This document shows, in pieces, positions 9,349-15,707 of a stretch of 64,000 nt of DNA. The stretch lies in NCBI GenBank assembly GCA_947464275.1, contig CANHVU010000002.1:1-64000 (forward strand), in the 5' to 3' direction. Under the pieces are notes generated by a model that saw only the letters and a program-made list of their open reading frames with translations, did no database searches and was not told the origin of the DNA. This stretch comes from Bacteroidota bacterium (lineage in GTDB: Bacteria; Bacteroidota; Bacteroidia; UKL13-3). The stretch's first letter is position 1, and each line of letters opens with the position of its first letter. A program made the translations under genes and the position numbers.

Positions 9349-9399
9349 AGAGTCTTATCGCACTCACTAGCGGTACGCTAGTGAGTGCGATAAGACTCT
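9349..9399 (-). terminator. Perfect 24-bp hairpin at the stop codon of the PKD gene
   Basis: The two 24-base arms (9349-9372 and 9376-9399) match perfectly around the 3-base loop GTA. Each contains CGCACTCACTAGCG or its complement, so the stem is richer in G and C than the surroundings. The first base of the arm is the last base of the TAA stop codon. On the minus strand the hairpin is followed after a few bases by a T-rich tract, so it can act as a terminator. The stem is unusually long for that role. Confidence 0.7.
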
Positions 9400-12300
9400 T
9401 ACTTTTTTAGAATCTTAAAACATTTAGACTCGTCATTAGTTGAAATATTTACAAAATAAATTCCATTACTCAATTCTGCGATTTTTATTGTAAAATCTTT
9501 TGAGTTATTGGCTTCATATTCTTTTATTGTTTTACCACAAATATCAAGGATTGAAATTTTAGAATATTGTATTTCTTCAGAAAATGAAATATTTAATAGA
9601 TCACTTACAGGATTTGGAAATATTGTTAAATTGAAAAGCTTTTTAGATTGATAGATTCCTGTTTTAACAAAATCAAAGGGAGACGATGTGTTTTCGCATT
9701 GTTTATCATTTGTAGTTTTAACAGTATATGATCCACTTTGGTTTGCTAAAATCCCGTTTGTATTTTTACCATTTAATAAAACATTGTTTCTATACCATTG
9801 ATAAGTAGTATTTGTTGTAAAAGGACAAATTAATGAATCTGATTTCTGTATTATAGAGGCAACTGAAGGATTGTAAATTGCTAAACTCTGTATTAAAGTA
9901 TCTGCACATGCAAAAGAGTTTTTAACAATTAAAGTAATTCCTTTATTACCCCCAGTTGAAAAAGTTTTATTCGGCTGTTTTAAATTTGAAGAGGTGCCAT
10001 CTGAAAACTTCCAATTATACAACAAACCTGATGCTGAAGAAACATTTTGAAAAACTAACGGAGTATTAGGACAAACCGAACTAGTAGTAAAACTACTTAC
10101 TGGCCTTGGATTTATTGTGATTGTTTTATTTGTTGAAGGAAAGCAATATAAATTACCACTATTGTCATTGTTGTATTTATGTACTACTTTTAGTTGATAA
10201 ACACCGGAATCTTGTTTTAAAGAATTCCAAATTAAATAATTTGCAGTTTTGTCATACTTCATTACTAATTGATTGTCTTTATACCAAAAAGTAGAATCCG
10301 CATCAGTATTCATCTGCTGAAATATTTGTTGATTTCCAGCACAGAAAGTCAAATTCCCTGTGAAATCAGATATTGAAGCACTATTAGGCTTTATTAAAAA
10401 ATTTCTGCTATTTGGTAAAGATGTAGAACAACCATTTATCTTATTTACCTTAGTTCCTGTTATAACAGAAAGTTGATTTACATTTGTTGCATTTGAATAT
10501 TTTATTGTTGGACTACTAGTATTGACTCCTTTTATTACTGATCCATAAGTAACATTCCAAGTATAATTATAGTTGTTAGAATTAGAAGTTGTATCATATA
10601 CATTAAATTCAGTACTAGCACATATTTGAACCACAAAACCACTTGCATCTGTTGCAATCTTTGCTTTTATGTTTTCTCTTAAATAAACGTCTTTGGCTAT
10701 AATGGTATCTTTACAATAATTGTTATAAATCACCGCTCCAAATTGTCTTAATCCAATTCCTGCAAAATTAATATTTGTGCATGTATTTACACCATTGCTA
10801 CCTGTAGCTCCAGAAAATATTGTATCTTTTATTGGCAAAGGGCCCCAAACATATGTGTTGTTTTTTAAACCTGAAACTTGAGCAGAAAAATTAGTGTTGG
10901 CGCATATGGAATCAACTGAAGTTATTAAATTATTATACTTAACAAAATTTACACTTTTTGCCATTGAATCTATGCAGCCATTGGCATTGGTTAGTATCAG
11001 TTTTATATTGTATTGTCCAGTGTTACCAAATTCTTTTTTTAAAGTATCTCTGTTATAAGTTGATCCATCAGGTAATTTCCATAATATATCACTAATCGGC
11101 TCAAATTTTGTGAACCTTAAAACTAATTTACCGTTGCCACAATATCCAAACGTATCAAAATTTACTGTAGGGTTATTATATTTATTAAATCTTAAAGGGT
11201 TTCCAGCTTCTAAACAGGAGTTTGGTTGAATATGAAAAAGATTATAATATCCTTGGTTTTTTATAATAGTACTTTTTGTTGTATCACCATTTGACCAAAC
11301 TGTATTTTTTGTTTCAGAAGTCGTTAAAACGATTGAATCGTTTGGACATAATGCTATTTTGCTTGATGTATTTATTGATAACAAACTACTACTTCCACAA
11401 ATATTATTTCCTATTTTAGCTATGAAACTATTTCTTTGAGTTGAAGTACCTGTTTTTAAAATATTAATGTTATCGGTAATAAACTTGAGTGTATCGGTAA
11501 TAAAAAATGAATTGAAATAAATATTACCCGCATTATCTTTTGTTAATTTCAAACCAGCATTATTATAGTCTATACTTCGTGCCCATGCTTCAGTATTGTT
11601 ACTATTTAATTTTAAAAGTAAAATACGATTATTGGAAACATTATTAATTTTCGGATTGTAATAAGTTTGATTTGAAAAAACAATAGTGTCATTATCCCAA
11701 ATTTGAGTAGCAATATAAATATTACCTGAATTGTCACATTCTATTGCTCCATTTTTGTATAATACATCTACTTTACTATTTATTTTTTTAGCAATTTTCA
11801 AATTTCCTTTGTAGTCAAACTTTAATACAAAACAATTAGATTTTCCTATTAATGTTGCACTATTGTTAATATAAAGAGTATCTTCATAATTACCTATACA
11901 ATATGTATTACCAGCTATATCTGTTTTCAAATCGATAAACGACATAGATCCATTTGCTTTACCATAAAAATGATGATACCATTGAATTTCACCCAAGTAA
12001 TTATATTTTATTAAAATACAATCAGTATTGCCTTTTACATTAACATTATTGATTAATGTAGAATTTCCCCTAAATTTATAAGTGACATAATAATTTCCAA
12101 CTTGATCTGCTTCCATATTAATTCCTTGACTATAAGTTGACGGAGTGCCTAAAAGACTATTTGATTTCAAGCTTCCCGAAGTGTCTAAACTATATATCCT
12201 TGGTCTATATGAATTACCTATTCTATTTGTTAAAACATATAAATTATTAGCGTTGGTAACAGCAATTGATATGCCTTCAGCATCGGAACCATTTTCATTA

Positions 12301-12785
12301 AAATTAGTTGCCCACCTGAATACACCATTGGTGTTTAACTTTAAGGCAAATGGTGAACTACTGTATGAAAATATTCCTCCTAAATAACTAACAGTTATAC
12401 TTCCGAAATTATTTGTGCTAGTAATATTTCCTGTTGCATATAGTTGTTTGTCAGGTCCAAAAATTATTTTATTAACTACCCCTTCTCCATTTCCTCTAAC
12501 AGCCCATTTAAAACTAGTATCAGCACCATATTTTAATATAATTGGGCTTCCAAATGGTGCATAAAAACTAGTACTGCCGTTATTGAATTGACCTTTTAAT
12601 AATCCTGCAATATAAATATTTCCAGAATCGTCTAAACAAACTGAATAACTCGTAATTCCTGGAGCATATTGTTTAACCCAATCTATTGGAGTTGATTGAG
12701 AAAAAGATTTTGTTATAAAAACTATTGAAACAAATACCATTAAGAATGTTTTGTTTAAAAAATCGATTATAATTTTATTTTTCAT
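9399..12785 (-). CDS. Large secreted protein with beta-propeller-like N-terminus, PKD domain and T9SS sorting domain
   Basis: The 1128-residue product has a signal peptide (ending near TKSFSQ). The first 450 residues carry repeats such as SGNIYIAGLL, AGNTYCIGNY and SGNIYIATQIW, resembling SBBP or propeller-type repeats. A run of Ig-like and PKD-like segments follows, including LLYNWKFSDGTSSN near residue 925. The C-terminus is a T9SS type A domain with LTIFPNPVSDLLNISF and a GIYFVNIS strand. It is probably a cell-surface or secreted adhesion-type protein, but no activity can be assigned. It neighbours another T9SS cargo gene and an orphan T9SS domain in the same orientation. It ends in a long perfect hairpin. 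Confidence 0.9.
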   Translation of the reverse strand: MKNKIIIDFLNKTFLMVFVSIVFITKSFSQSTPIDWVKQYAPGITSYSVCLDDSGNIYIAGLLKGQFNNGSTSFYAPFGSPIILKYGADTSFKWAVRGNGEGVVNKIIFGPDKQLYATGNITSTNNFGSITVSYLGGIFSYSSSPFALKLNTNGVFRWATNFNENGSDAEGISIAVTNANNLYVLTNRIGNSYRPRIYSLDTSGSLKSNSLLGTPSTYSQGINMEADQVGNYYVTYKFRGNSTLINNVNVKGNTDCILIKYNYLGEIQWYHHFYGKANGSMSFIDLKTDIAGNTYCIGNYEDTLYINNSATLIGKSNCFVLKFDYKGNLKIAKKINSKVDVLYKNGAIECDNSGNIYIATQIWDNDTIVFSNQTYYNPKINNVSNNRILLLKLNSNNTEAWARSIDYNNAGLKLTKDNAGNIYFNSFFITDTLKFITDNINILKTGTSTQRNSFIAKIGNNICGSSSLLSINTSSKIALCPNDSIVLTTSETKNTVWSNGDTTKSTIIKNQGYYNLFHIQPNSCLEAGNPLRFNKYNNPTVNFDTFGYCGNGKLVLRFTKFEPISDILWKLPDGSTYNRDTLKKEFGNTGQYNIKLILTNANGCIDSMAKSVNFVKYNNLITSVDSICANTNFSAQVSGLKNNTYVWGPLPIKDTIFSGATGSNGVNTCTNINFAGIGLRQFGAVIYNNYCKDTIIAKDVYLRENIKAKIATDASGFVVQICASTEFNVYDTTSNSNNYNYTWNVTYGSVIKGVNTSSPTIKYSNATNVNQLSVITGTKVNKINGCSTSLPNSRNFLIKPNSASISDFTGNLTFCAGNQQIFQQMNTDADSTFWYKDNQLVMKYDKTANYLIWNSLKQDSGVYQLKVVHKYNNDNSGNLYCFPSTNKTITINPRPVSSFTTSSVCPNTPLVFQNVSSASGLLYNWKFSDGTSSNLKQPNKTFSTGGNKGITLIVKNSFACADTLIQSLAIYNPSVASIIQKSDSLICPFTTNTTYQWYRNNVLLNGKNTNGILANQSGSYTVKTTNDKQCENTSSPFDFVKTGIYQSKKLFNLTIFPNPVSDLLNISFSEEIQYSKISILDICGKTIKEYEANNSKDFTIKIAELSNGIYFVNISTNDESKCFKILKK

Positions 12786-12868: not shown

Positions 12869-13110
12869 CCAGCCAGTGCGGTTTTGCAATGCGCATTTAA
12901 TACTATAAGCATTTGTAATGCGAAAATATTATTCCTGTTAAAATAGTAGTTCAATGGTTAGTTTGGTAAAATCGGATTACAAATCCTCACAGTAAAGGGT
13001 TCGGATTGCAAATCCGAACCAGCGGACCTTTTAGTACCAGCCAGTGCGGTTTTGTAAACCGCACTTAACTACTATAAGCATCTATAATGCGAAAAATATT
13101 ATTCCTATTA
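12869..13110. repeat. Left REP block of the RAYT island
   Basis: The block holds three palindromes: a degenerate one at 12876-12896, GGTTCGGATT/AATCCGAACC at 12998-13020, and AGTGCGGTTT/AAACCGCACT at 13043-13065. The latter two have 10-bp stems and 3-base loops. The segment 12869-13034 is repeated almost exactly at 13729-13895. The tail TATAATGCGAAAA plus TATTATTCC also recurs. No gene is present between 12786 and 13123. Confidence 0.88.
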
Positions 13111-13123
13111 ATATATTTGCTTT

Positions 13124-13669
13124 ATGTCACTAAAAACAATAACTGATAAAGAAGGGATTTATTTCCTAACATCAACTGTTGTTGATTGGGTTGATGTATT
13201 TACACGCCCAGTTTATCGCTATATAATTATTGATTCGTTAAAGCATTGTATAAATGAAAAAGGATTGGAATTATATGCATGGGTTATTATGTCTAATCAT
13301 ATACATTTGGTTGCAGCTTCAAAACAGGGTTTTGATTTGAGTGATACAATGCGTGATTTTAAAAAATATACTAGCAAACAAATCACCGCAGCAATTTTAA
13401 CCGAAAATGAAAGCAGAAAAGATTGGATGATAAATAGGTTTGAATATGCAGGAAAAAATGATAAGAAAATAAAAAACTATAAGTTTTGGCAAGATGGAAA
13501 TGAAGCTAAACCGATTTATAGTTTTGAGTTTTTAAAACAAAAAATAGATTATATTCATAATAATCCAATTAAAGCAGAAATAGTTGAATATGCTGATCAA
13601 TACAAATTTAGTTCAGCAATTGATTATGCTGGTGGGAAAGGTTTACTTAAAGTAATATTGGCATGGTAA
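13124..13669 (+). CDS. REP-associated tyrosine transposase (RAYT, IS200-like Y1 superfamily)
   Basis: The 181-residue product is a single-strand DNA nuclease of the TnpA-REP/RAYT type, which nicks and joins at REP hairpins. Catalytic elements are visible: the HUH metal-binding motif His59-Ile-His61 in WVIMSNHIHLVA, and the nucleophile Tyr143 in DYIHNNPIKAEIV. The length fits a RAYT rather than the shorter IS200 TnpA. The gene appears intact and is enclosed by palindromic REP elements on both sides, which are the expected substrates. RAYTs are usually single-copy, vertically inherited genes. Whether this one is active cannot be seen. Confidence 0.93.
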   Translation: MSLKTITDKEGIYFLTSTVVDWVDVFTRPVYRYIIIDSLKHCINEKGLELYAWVIMSNHIHLVAASKQGFDLSDTMRDFKKYTSKQITAAILTENESRKDWMINRFEYAGKNDKKIKNYKFWQDGNEAKPIYSFEFLKQKIDYIHNNPIKAEIVEYADQYKFSSAIDYAGGKGLLKVILAW

Positions 13670-13670
13670 A

Positions 13671-13895
13671 AAGTGGATTGCAAATCCTTTTAGTAAAGGG
13701 TTCGGATTGCAAATCCGAACCAGCGGAACCAGCCAGTGCGGTTTTGCAAACCGCACTTTACTACTATTAGCATTTGTAATGCGAAAATATTATTCCTGTT
13801 AAAATATTAGTTCAATGGTTAGTTTGGTAAAATCGGATTACAAATCCTCATAGTAAAGGGTTTGGATTGCAAATCCGAACCAGCGGACCTTTTAG
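13671..13895. repeat. Right REP block of the RAYT island
   Basis: Palindromes are seen at 13699-13721 (GGTTCGGATT/AATCCGAACC), 13735-13757 (AGTGCGGTTT/AAACCGCACT) and 13859-13881 (a one-base variant of the first). The segment 13729-13895 is the second copy of the direct repeat at 12869-13034. Confidence 0.88.
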
Positions 13896-13920: not shown

Positions 13921-14961
13921 TTAAAGCCACTTAAGTTTTGGAATTAAATTGTAAAATCTATATCCAAAATTAAAACCCAAACTGGTTGATTGGTTGGCTA
14001 CAAAATTAGGGTAGCCAAAGCTGTTAAGGGAACCATCGTATATTAAAAAAATATTCCAAAAATATTTGTTCCCATTTCTTCCTACTGAAAGTTTAGCATG
14101 GGTGTCAAATTCGTAACTTAAACCGGTTTGTTCCTTAAGATTACTATTAATTTTGTATGTTGCTACTCCTAAACCTAAAAACGCTGATGGTGAAATGAAC
14201 CAAGTGCCACCTTTAAAGCAAAAATTATAAGCATAACCTGGTCTAAAATTTAAATGCCAAAGTCTTAAAAAATTCATGCCAGTCAATTCACCATAATTTT
14301 TTGCATTGTCAATATTGGTAGGAATGACGGATGAGTCAGCTTTCATTGACCTATAACCTAAACCACACATAATTAAAATAGAACCTGACGATTTTCGTTG
14401 AAACTCAGCCATGGAAAGGGCACTGCGGTAAGAGAATTTTTTGTAATTTACGTTGTAAAATAAATTTAAACCGTGTGCTTGAATATTTGCATCGGGTCTA
14501 ATTGATAAATTGGTATCTGCACCTAACGTGCGATAAGCGCCAACAAACGAGCGAGAGTATACTTCTCCACCGCCCCAAGATTGGTAATAACTAAATGAGA
14601 AATCGTAATAATTGGTTCTTCCAAATTTTCTTTCATTACCATTGGTACGCGGAACCTGCACTCCAAAAGCCACTGTTACATATTTTAATCCAAGGCTCAA
14701 GCCAGTTTGTAAACTTATATTAGGCGATAACTTAATCAGTTCTGTGGAGTTTGAAAATCGAGGCGGATTGATAAAAAAATCGAATTTATTAAGCCAAGTA
14801 TTAAATTGAATATTATAAGGGCGTTCAAACTGAACTATGTAGTTGGTATCTTTTTGTGAATAGGCCTGATGAAAGTTTAAAACAAAAAATACTATTAAAT
14901 AATAAACCAATCTATTAGGTTTAATATCAAGTATAAATTGAGTTTTAAAATGCAATTTCAT
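13921..14961 (-). CDS. Predicted outer-membrane beta-barrel protein, unknown function
   Basis: The family is not recognised. The 346-residue product has an N-terminal hydrophobic signal (YLIVFFVLNFHQAYSQ) and then alternating strands rich in Tyr, Phe and Gly, ending in LGFNFGYRFYNLIPKLKWL, which suits an outer-membrane barrel. It lies 23 bases downstream of lptB on the same strand, so the two are probably co-transcribed. That linkage hints at an envelope role, but it is not evidence of a direct link to lipopolysaccharide transport. The 3' side borders the REP block. Confidence 0.7.
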   Translation of the reverse strand: MKLHFKTQFILDIKPNRLVYYLIVFFVLNFHQAYSQKDTNYIVQFERPYNIQFNTWLNKFDFFINPPRFSNSTELIKLSPNISLQTGLSLGLKYVTVAFGVQVPRTNGNERKFGRTNYYDFSFSYYQSWGGGEVYSRSFVGAYRTLGADTNLSIRPDANIQAHGLNLFYNVNYKKFSYRSALSMAEFQRKSSGSILIMCGLGYRSMKADSSVIPTNIDNAKNYGELTGMNFLRLWHLNFRPGYAYNFCFKGGTWFISPSAFLGLGVATYKINSNLKEQTGLSYEFDTHAKLSVGRNGNKYFWNIFLIYDGSLNSFGYPNFVANQSTSLGFNFGYRFYNLIPKLKWL

Positions 14962-14984: not shown

Positions 14985-15707
14985 TTATCTTAACACAAAG
15001 TTTTGTCCTAAATAAACTCGTCTTACCATTTCATCATCAGCTAACTCTTGGCCTGTTCCGGCTTTTAATATTTTGCCTTCAAAAAGCAAATATGCCCTAT
15101 CAACTATCGAAAGTGTTTCATGTACATTGTGGTCTGTTACTAAAATGCCAATGTTTTTATGTTTTAGTTTGGCCACAATTACTTGAATATCTTCTACAGC
15201 AATAGGGTCAATTCCAGCAAAAGGTTCATCCAAAAGAATAAATTTTGGATTTACAGCAAGTGCACGCGCTATTTCAGTTCTTCTTCTTTCGCCACCGCTT
15301 AATACATTTCCCATGCTTTTACGTACCTTATGTAAAGTAAACTCATCAATAAGTGATTCTAGTTTATCACGTTGTTCTTCCTTACTCATGTCAGTAAGTT
15401 CCATTACGGCTTTGATATTATCTTCTACACTTAAGGTCCTAAATATACTAGCCTCTTGAGGTAAATAACCTAAGCCTTTTTGCGCCCTTTTATACATTGG
15501 CATGGCAGTTAAATCCTCATTATCAAGGGTAACAGTTCCCGAATCAGGTTTGATTAAACCAACAGTCATATAAAAAGTAGTTGTTTTTCCAGCACCATTT
15601 GGTCCAAGTAAACCAACACATTCGCCTTGTTCTACTTCTATTGAAACATGATCAACTACTGTTCTTTTTTTATATCTTTTTACTAAATTATGGCTTTCTA
15701 ATTTCAT
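14985..15707 (-). CDS. lptB: LPS export ABC transporter ATP-binding protein LptB
   Basis: LptB is the ATPase that drives lipopolysaccharide extraction from the inner membrane with LptF and LptG. The 240-residue product has Walker [10 protein letters not shown] at residues 35-43, the Q-loop region [19 protein letters not shown], the signature [15 protein letters not shown], Walker [13 protein letters not shown] and the switch histidine in [21 protein letters not shown] and LSGGERRR are typical of LptB rather than of other ABC ATPases. It starts an apparent two-gene unit with the downstream barrel gene. The LptA-like partner in this window is the OstA-like gene at 28857. Confidence 0.96.

Follow-up and report, generated by a model that had tools for sequence, protein, structure and literature searches.

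Repetitive extragenic palindrome (REP)-associated tyrosine transposases (RAYTs) have been described since 2011 as single-copy genes that are inherited in place and cannot copy themselves, and RAYT units are described as not transposing (PMC6006769, PMC8049555). For the REP doublets forming hairpins (REPINs), an origin from the ends of an ancestral, autonomous RAYT-like element was put forward in 2011 (PMC3116915). Here we analyse a RAYT locus at positions 12869–13895 of a 64,000-nt stretch of a Bacteroidota genome of the UKL13-3 lineage (contig CANHVU010000002.1, assembly GCA_947464275.1; genome G000), the whole of which is called the window below. Judged from its sequence, the locus is probably a small tyrosine (HUH) transposon with the RAYT as its sole gene and inverted double-hairpin ends, flanked by two gene-deleted miniature inverted-repeat transposable elements (MITEs). 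A mobile RAYT of this subclass would depart from the published general rule that RAYTs are not self-mobile.

The closest described relatives are the RAYTs of subclass 2.6, which occur mostly in Bacteroidetes, lack the GTAG foot and are accompanied by atypical flanking structures, found by manual inspection, that recur elsewhere in the genome (Quentin et al. 2018, PMC6006769). The window RAYT has in common with them its size, the NHIH, WQ and YIHNNP motifs and non-GTAG atypical flanking structures that are copied elsewhere; compared with the published subclass, the element adds a GCY foot, a double-hairpin end, apparent movement as a unit and MITEs that appear to derive from it by deletion. Subclass 2.6 is reportedly the same as group 5 of Bertels et al. 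2017.

TIRtrons, or TIRYTs, as presented in the portion of their description drawn on here (Di Nocera et al. 2013, PMC3733652), likewise have a RAYT-like gene within long terminal inverted repeats, some of them double-palindromic, and single and dimeric copies of the repeats in the genome; according to the same portion, the motif GGGGWSAS is on only part of the published terminal repeats. Unlike TIRtrons as described there, the window-type family has dimers that can be traced to a gene-bearing element, and it shows signs of unit movement. REPINs and bacterial interspersed mosaic elements (BIMEs) of E. coli and Pseudomonas (PMC3116915, PMC8266576) share with the window family inverted foot-plus-hairpin doublets, dependence on an HUH enzyme of the Y1 type (which is putative here) and a recognised strand that alternates between the two units. 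Their foot is GTAG/GTGG, whereas that of the window family is GCY; they often reach hundreds of copies, against about 22 ends in the window's genome; and REPIN spacers are described as highly diverse, while those found here still resemble the RAYT leader. IS200/IS605 elements are also mobile single-gene HUH elements with hairpin ends and gene-less derivatives, but they are described without terminal inverted repeats (PMC2817692), in contrast to the inverted ends seen here. Measured against the papers cited here, the GCY foot, the evidence for internal deletion and the unit movement appear to be new, and part of this may already be contained in Bertels et al. 2017 or in supplementary tables.

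Organisation of the locus

The intact RAYT gene (13124–13669, plus strand) is enclosed by several hairpins and by two direct-repeat copies of 167 bp, 12869–13034 and 13729–13895, which are identical at 159 of 167 positions (95%), in agreement with the direct repeat claimed in the first-pass annotation. Long hairpins lie on the left side at 12998–13020 (type D) and 13043–13065 (type A), with a decayed A at 12875–12896, and on the right side at 13699–13721 (D), 13735–13757 (A) and 13859–13881 (D); the earlier count of three hairpins per side is correct if the decayed copy is included, and otherwise the left side has two. Each long hairpin is paired with a short one, and the order on the plus strand is A (AGTGCGGTTT-TGC-AAACCGCACT) and B (GCATT-TGT-AATGC), later followed by C (GGATT-ACA-AATCC) and D (GGTTCGGATT-GCA-AATCCGAACC).

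The A–B and C–D halves are inverted versions of one another (48 nt, 73% complementary) and share, in register, the foot GCY, a 10-bp stem, a 3-nt loop, an 11–12-nt linker and a 5-bp stem. The element end is a double hairpin of 56–57 nt, and the right end is the left end inverted, with nearly equal spacing. Among 18 such ends, six base pairs have changed on both sides, and the covariation score is reached by none of 500 shuffles.

The first-pass annotation had assumed two hairpin types served by one enzyme, with CCAG as a possible shared word beside the stems. Since the A–B and C–D halves invert one another and carry a common foot, loop and spacing on opposite strands, two independent hairpin families are ruled out, and the supposed types are the two inverted ends of one element. 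CCAG was rejected because its strand differs between A and D, which puts it out of register, whereas GCY is in register.

A covariance model built from the double-hairpin end (R1) placed the left end of the RAYT element at 13040–13096 on the plus strand (70.7 bits), with foot GCC, the 10-bp hairpin 13043–13065, a linker and a short hairpin, and the right end at 13669–13724 on the minus strand (71.4 bits), with foot GCT on that strand. Both direct repeats contain the same two ends, separated by a spacer of ~40 nt that resembles the RAYT leader. In the left MITE (12869–13034), delimited by alignment of the repeats, the ends were found at 12872–12927 (+) and 12968–13023 (−), the first long hairpin being the decayed one; in the right MITE (13729–13895) they were found at 13732–13788 (+) and 13829–13884 (−). 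With the paired inverted ends located in this way, the locus reads, at the level of its sequence, as MITE, RAYT element, MITE. The short partner hairpins, and the nature of the repeats as gene-less copies of the RAYT element, had been missed in the first reading.

Classification of the RAYT protein

The open reading frame at 13124–13669 is uninterrupted and encodes 181 aa, including the HUH motif N58-H59-I60-H61, Y143 within YIHNNP, and an FWQ motif. Both HUH histidines and the tyrosine, already recognised in the initial description of the gene as intact, are invariant across 20 relatives. The protein scored 101 bits against the NCBIfam model REP_Tyr_transpos (cut-off 80) and was assigned to Y1_Tnp in Pfam. 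With only 25 bits it fell below the IS200 transposase cut-off of 55, and it has YIHNNP at the place of the IS200 signature Y[IV]ENQ; together with the inverted ends, this separates the element from IS200/IS605, which is characterised by the IS200 TnpA signature and the lack of terminal inverted repeats. No relative by sequence was found in the PDB. By fold, the best PDB match of an AlphaFold2 model of the protein (pLDDT 77) was 4ER8 (E 8.5e-7, TM 0.59/0.64), the E. coli RAYT (TnpA-REP) bound to a REP hairpin, which is the nearest solved fold. The motifs NH[LIV]H, WQ and YIH[QN]NP, the length of 181 aa versus about 179 aa, the predicted fold of E. coli TnpA-REP, and the non-GTAG hairpins that flank the gene and have copies elsewhere in the genome agree with subclass 2.6, and by motifs and size the protein is assigned to this Bacteroidota-type subclass.

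Upstream of the gene, TATATTTG at 13112–13119 (+) is a candidate −7 box, proposed from its match to the Bacteroidetes consensus TAnnTTTG. It recurs at this position, exactly 12 nt ahead of the start codon, in all three of the clade's intact RAYT genes, and is absent from a frameshifted copy in genome G003. Since the box is also present in 7 of 26 MITE spacers, compared with 1.6 expected, MITEs may carry a promoter piece.

A one-sided GCY foot

The conserved bases that had been expected beside the stems proved to be GCY. The comparison took in 67 hairpins with a 10-bp stem and a T-R-Y loop around RAYT relatives from Pontibacter, Rufibacter, Hymenobacter, Larkinella, Adhaeribacter, Ancylomarina and several uncultured Bacteroidota and Chlorobiota. 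GCT or GCC immediately precedes the stem on its 5' side in 60 of them, and GCY lies on the opposite side of the stem in 1/67. The orientation of the hairpins tracks the side of the gene (plus in 25 of 32 upstream, minus in 23 of 35 downstream), and in the window's genus the foot is extended to GCYRGT. Exact copies of the hairpin core were counted genome-wide in three Pontibacter and one Siphonobacter genomes, giving 8–36 per genome (control 0); in the copies read from these four genomes of named genera, GCT was at the 5' side in 30/30 and at the 3' side in 0/30, a result whose probability should not be taken literally, because copies of one family are not independent, and in which it is the one-sidedness that counts. 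Of five further RAYT families examined visually, four also have GC followed by C, T or A in front of the outermost hairpin, and their copies cease to be homologous close to that foot. Judged from these counts, the stems have a common foot across the phylum, which is GCY and not the 5' GTAG/GTGG foot of canonical REPs and REPINs. In the outer flank of the ends, CA tends to precede the left foot and CC the right one.

Dispersal of the ends and origin of the MITEs

The hairpins are not confined to the locus, as the genome-wide count called for in the first-pass annotation made clear: R1 matched 22 copies of the end in the window's genome. Each of the ten genomes searched within the genus, including this one, contains 4–23 copies; among 24 genomes outside the genus, one had 11 ends, three had 3–5 and 20 had none, a distribution that, like the covariation score, speaks against chance. 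Across the genus there was no clear link between the number of ends and the presence of the RAYT (4–23 ends in genomes with it, 8–18 in genomes without it). The stretches read contain 34 inverted doublets of ends, with a spacer that is usually 40–43 nt and mostly about 41 nt long, and which have the arrangement of REPINs, i.e., two inverted foot-plus-hairpin units as a doublet.

The spacers of these doublets preserve traces of the gene. Matches to RAYT leaders above shuffles (p<0.05) were found for 24 of 30 spacers (for example, AATAATTCCAATTAATATATTTGCTTTAAATTGGCATGGTA), as compared to 1/30 with a reversed reference, and both window MITEs match the leader with p 0.0025. The last bases of 9/30 spacers match the 3' end of the RAYT gene (control 2/30).

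The hairpins could alternatively be transcription terminators or structures stabilising mRNA, with no relation to the enzyme. Side functions of this kind are known for REPs of other bacteria, and the hairpins are intergenic and often lie past gene ends; however, a foot that is one-sided and tied to orientation, inverted doublets with a near-constant spacer, and spacers homologous to the RAYT gene make this explanation highly improbable.

In a genome of a related genus (G030), a full element with a RAYT 73% identical to that of the window coexists with two 310-bp elements, 98% alike, which retain the first ~55 RAYT codons and, at the other end, the last codons with the stop; both are joined at an identical point, within the short repeat GAT[AG]TTTAT. 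Because these copies keep codons on both sides of the deletion, the direction of the change is fixed for this genome as loss of the gene from the element. The shorter elements, having their ends in common with an autonomous element from which the sequences derive them by gene loss, are classified as MITEs.

Single MITEs were found at two places occupied by a RAYT element in another genome. In the closest species (G004; lptB dS 0.26), the window locus holds just one MITE, whose identity to the window MITEs is 92%, and at the place of the RAYT of genome G005, genomes G001 and G007, which share the left flank, have a MITE only. Loss of the gene by recombination between the direct repeats, as suggested in the first reading, is possible, and the single MITE of the closest species agrees with it; an ancestral lone MITE would fit such places equally well. 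The same single MITEs could also be taken to mean that gene-less double-hairpin repeats existed first and captured a RAYT. This order of events is quite unlikely, given that the two 310-bp copies, with RAYT codons flanking the deletion, indicate loss and not gain, that MITE spacers match the RAYT leaders of several species, and that hairpins of the same kind with the same foot stand beside RAYTs throughout Bacteroidota.

Mobility of the RAYT elements

Orthologues of the window RAYT in five species (G000, G005, G006, G003 and G030) occupy five unrelated places and share no specific flanking gene; RAYT relatives aside, the flanks matched only in proteins of a generic kind or of weak similarity, for instance two ABC-type ATPases with 28% identity. 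All five have double-hairpin ends, some of them worn. Copies of related RAYTs were found within single genomes. Two members of a second RAYT family in the window's genome, on contigs C3 (L005 1394–2032) and C16 (L006 1394–2033), are 96% identical over 640 bp, with homology ending at the hairpins, and genome G029, a single 3.2-Mb contig, has three RAYT copies that are 92–97% identical and in which homology is confined to the element. Between species, homology in several RAYT families mostly ends within about 160 bp beyond the gene. Related RAYTs, in pairs of 96–97% identity, are homologous only out to the hairpins and have therefore moved as units. Between G000 and G005, the RAYT has a lower dS (0.83) than a neighbouring host gene has (2.0), which, with one gene for comparison, hints at horizontal transfer.

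These data bear on the view that the RAYT is a domesticated "REPtron", kept by the host as an immobile gene, inherited in place and occasionally spreading REPs or REPINs, with the adjoining repeats being ordinary REPINs. The gene is under strong purifying selection (dN/dS = 0.05) and single-copy in the window's genome, some RAYTs in these genomes are syntenic, and the general literature view is of this kind (PMC6006769, PMC8049555). Against it stand the five unrelated places in five species, the duplication of related RAYTs as units together with their ends, and the remnants of the RAYT leader or coding sequence within MITEs, so we consider it unlikely.

Several observations nevertheless weigh against the self-mobile transposon that we favour. 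Apart from the single-copy state of the window RAYT, inheritance in place was seen for RAYTs on contig C375 of G005 (with C50 of G001 and C369 of G002) and on C299 of G005 (with C320 of G002). The mobility of the window RAYT itself is inferred from the differing places among species and from paralogues of the same kind. An exact empty site with intact flanks was not recovered at the window and G005 loci, the flanks at the G003 and G008 sites also differ, and neither a target duplication nor a cleavage site could be defined for the element. The match of the window MITEs to the 3' end of the RAYT gene is weak (p about 0.3).

Proposed mechanism and significance

The proposed transposon is supported by features that the sequence shows directly, namely the anatomy of the locus, the leader homology, the internal deletion in the related genus, the dispersal of the ends, the unit movement of related RAYTs and the phylum-wide foot. 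The low dN/dS of the RAYT, its fold match to 4ER8 and the MITE-only places in G001 and G007 also count in its favour. The recognition site at each end would consist of the GCY foot, the 10-bp stem with its T-R-Y loop and the 5-bp stem. We propose that, at both ends, the RAYT could bind the hairpin with its GCY foot while the DNA is single-stranded, that Tyr143 could cut beside the foot, and that the enzyme could thereby move its own element and, in trans, MITEs, which would arise when an internal deletion running from about the start to the stop codon removes the gene. Binding, the position of cleavage and movement in trans, like cleavage and transposition generally, are inferred.

A broader proposition is that Bacteroidota subclass 2.6 RAYTs are phylum-wide live self-mobilising transposons with inverted GCY-foot ends, from which REPIN-like repeats have repeatedly been born by internal deletion; we consider the chances of this to be about even. 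If true, the autonomous ancestor postulated for REPINs would still be active, and a strand-specific HUH enzyme would have a means of moving an element that presents its two ends on opposite strands. The window element has the appearance of a functioning representative of the ancestor that has been proposed for these widespread bacterial repeats. Autonomous elements, half-deleted copies and minimal doublets exist side by side in one clade at shared places; therefore, the birth of such repeats can be followed. The combination of GCY, a 10-bp stem and a TRY loop offers a concrete recognition rule for a subclass whose hairpins needed manual inspection, and the family occurs in the cultured genera Pontibacter, Hymenobacter and Rufibacter, which are amenable to testing.

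Additional observations

Doublets of 107 bp without a spacer are present at L080 89–195 and 226–332 and at L081 1–110 in the regions read. Contigs C22 and C28 both terminate within arrays of such doublets; therefore, the assembly breaks at these repeats. Another intergenic repeat family is located on contig C18 of the window's genome (L079, about 10280–10830), and G003 and G004 contain dozens of partial matches to it. In G005 (L068 5515–6050), duplicated fragments from the end of the right-flank gene lie both between the RAYT element and the next MITE and past that MITE, as if adjoining DNA had been copied along. On contig C33 of G030 (L070 8846–9610), the last ~100 bp of the first RAYT element come immediately after a RAYT that belongs to another family; a possible nested insertion has here a one-sided junction only, the left side being unrelated.

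The locus lies between a gene for a PKD-domain protein with a secretion C-terminal sorting domain (9399–12785) and a gene for a DUF4421 protein (13921–14961), the latter followed by an ABC-transporter ATPase of the LptB type (14985–15707).

RAYTs have been described as absent from plasmids. No RAYT relatives were found among phage records; relatives with 45–48% identity are present on 35–38 kb Bernardetia plasmids (NZ_CP147014.1 and NZ_CP147021.1).
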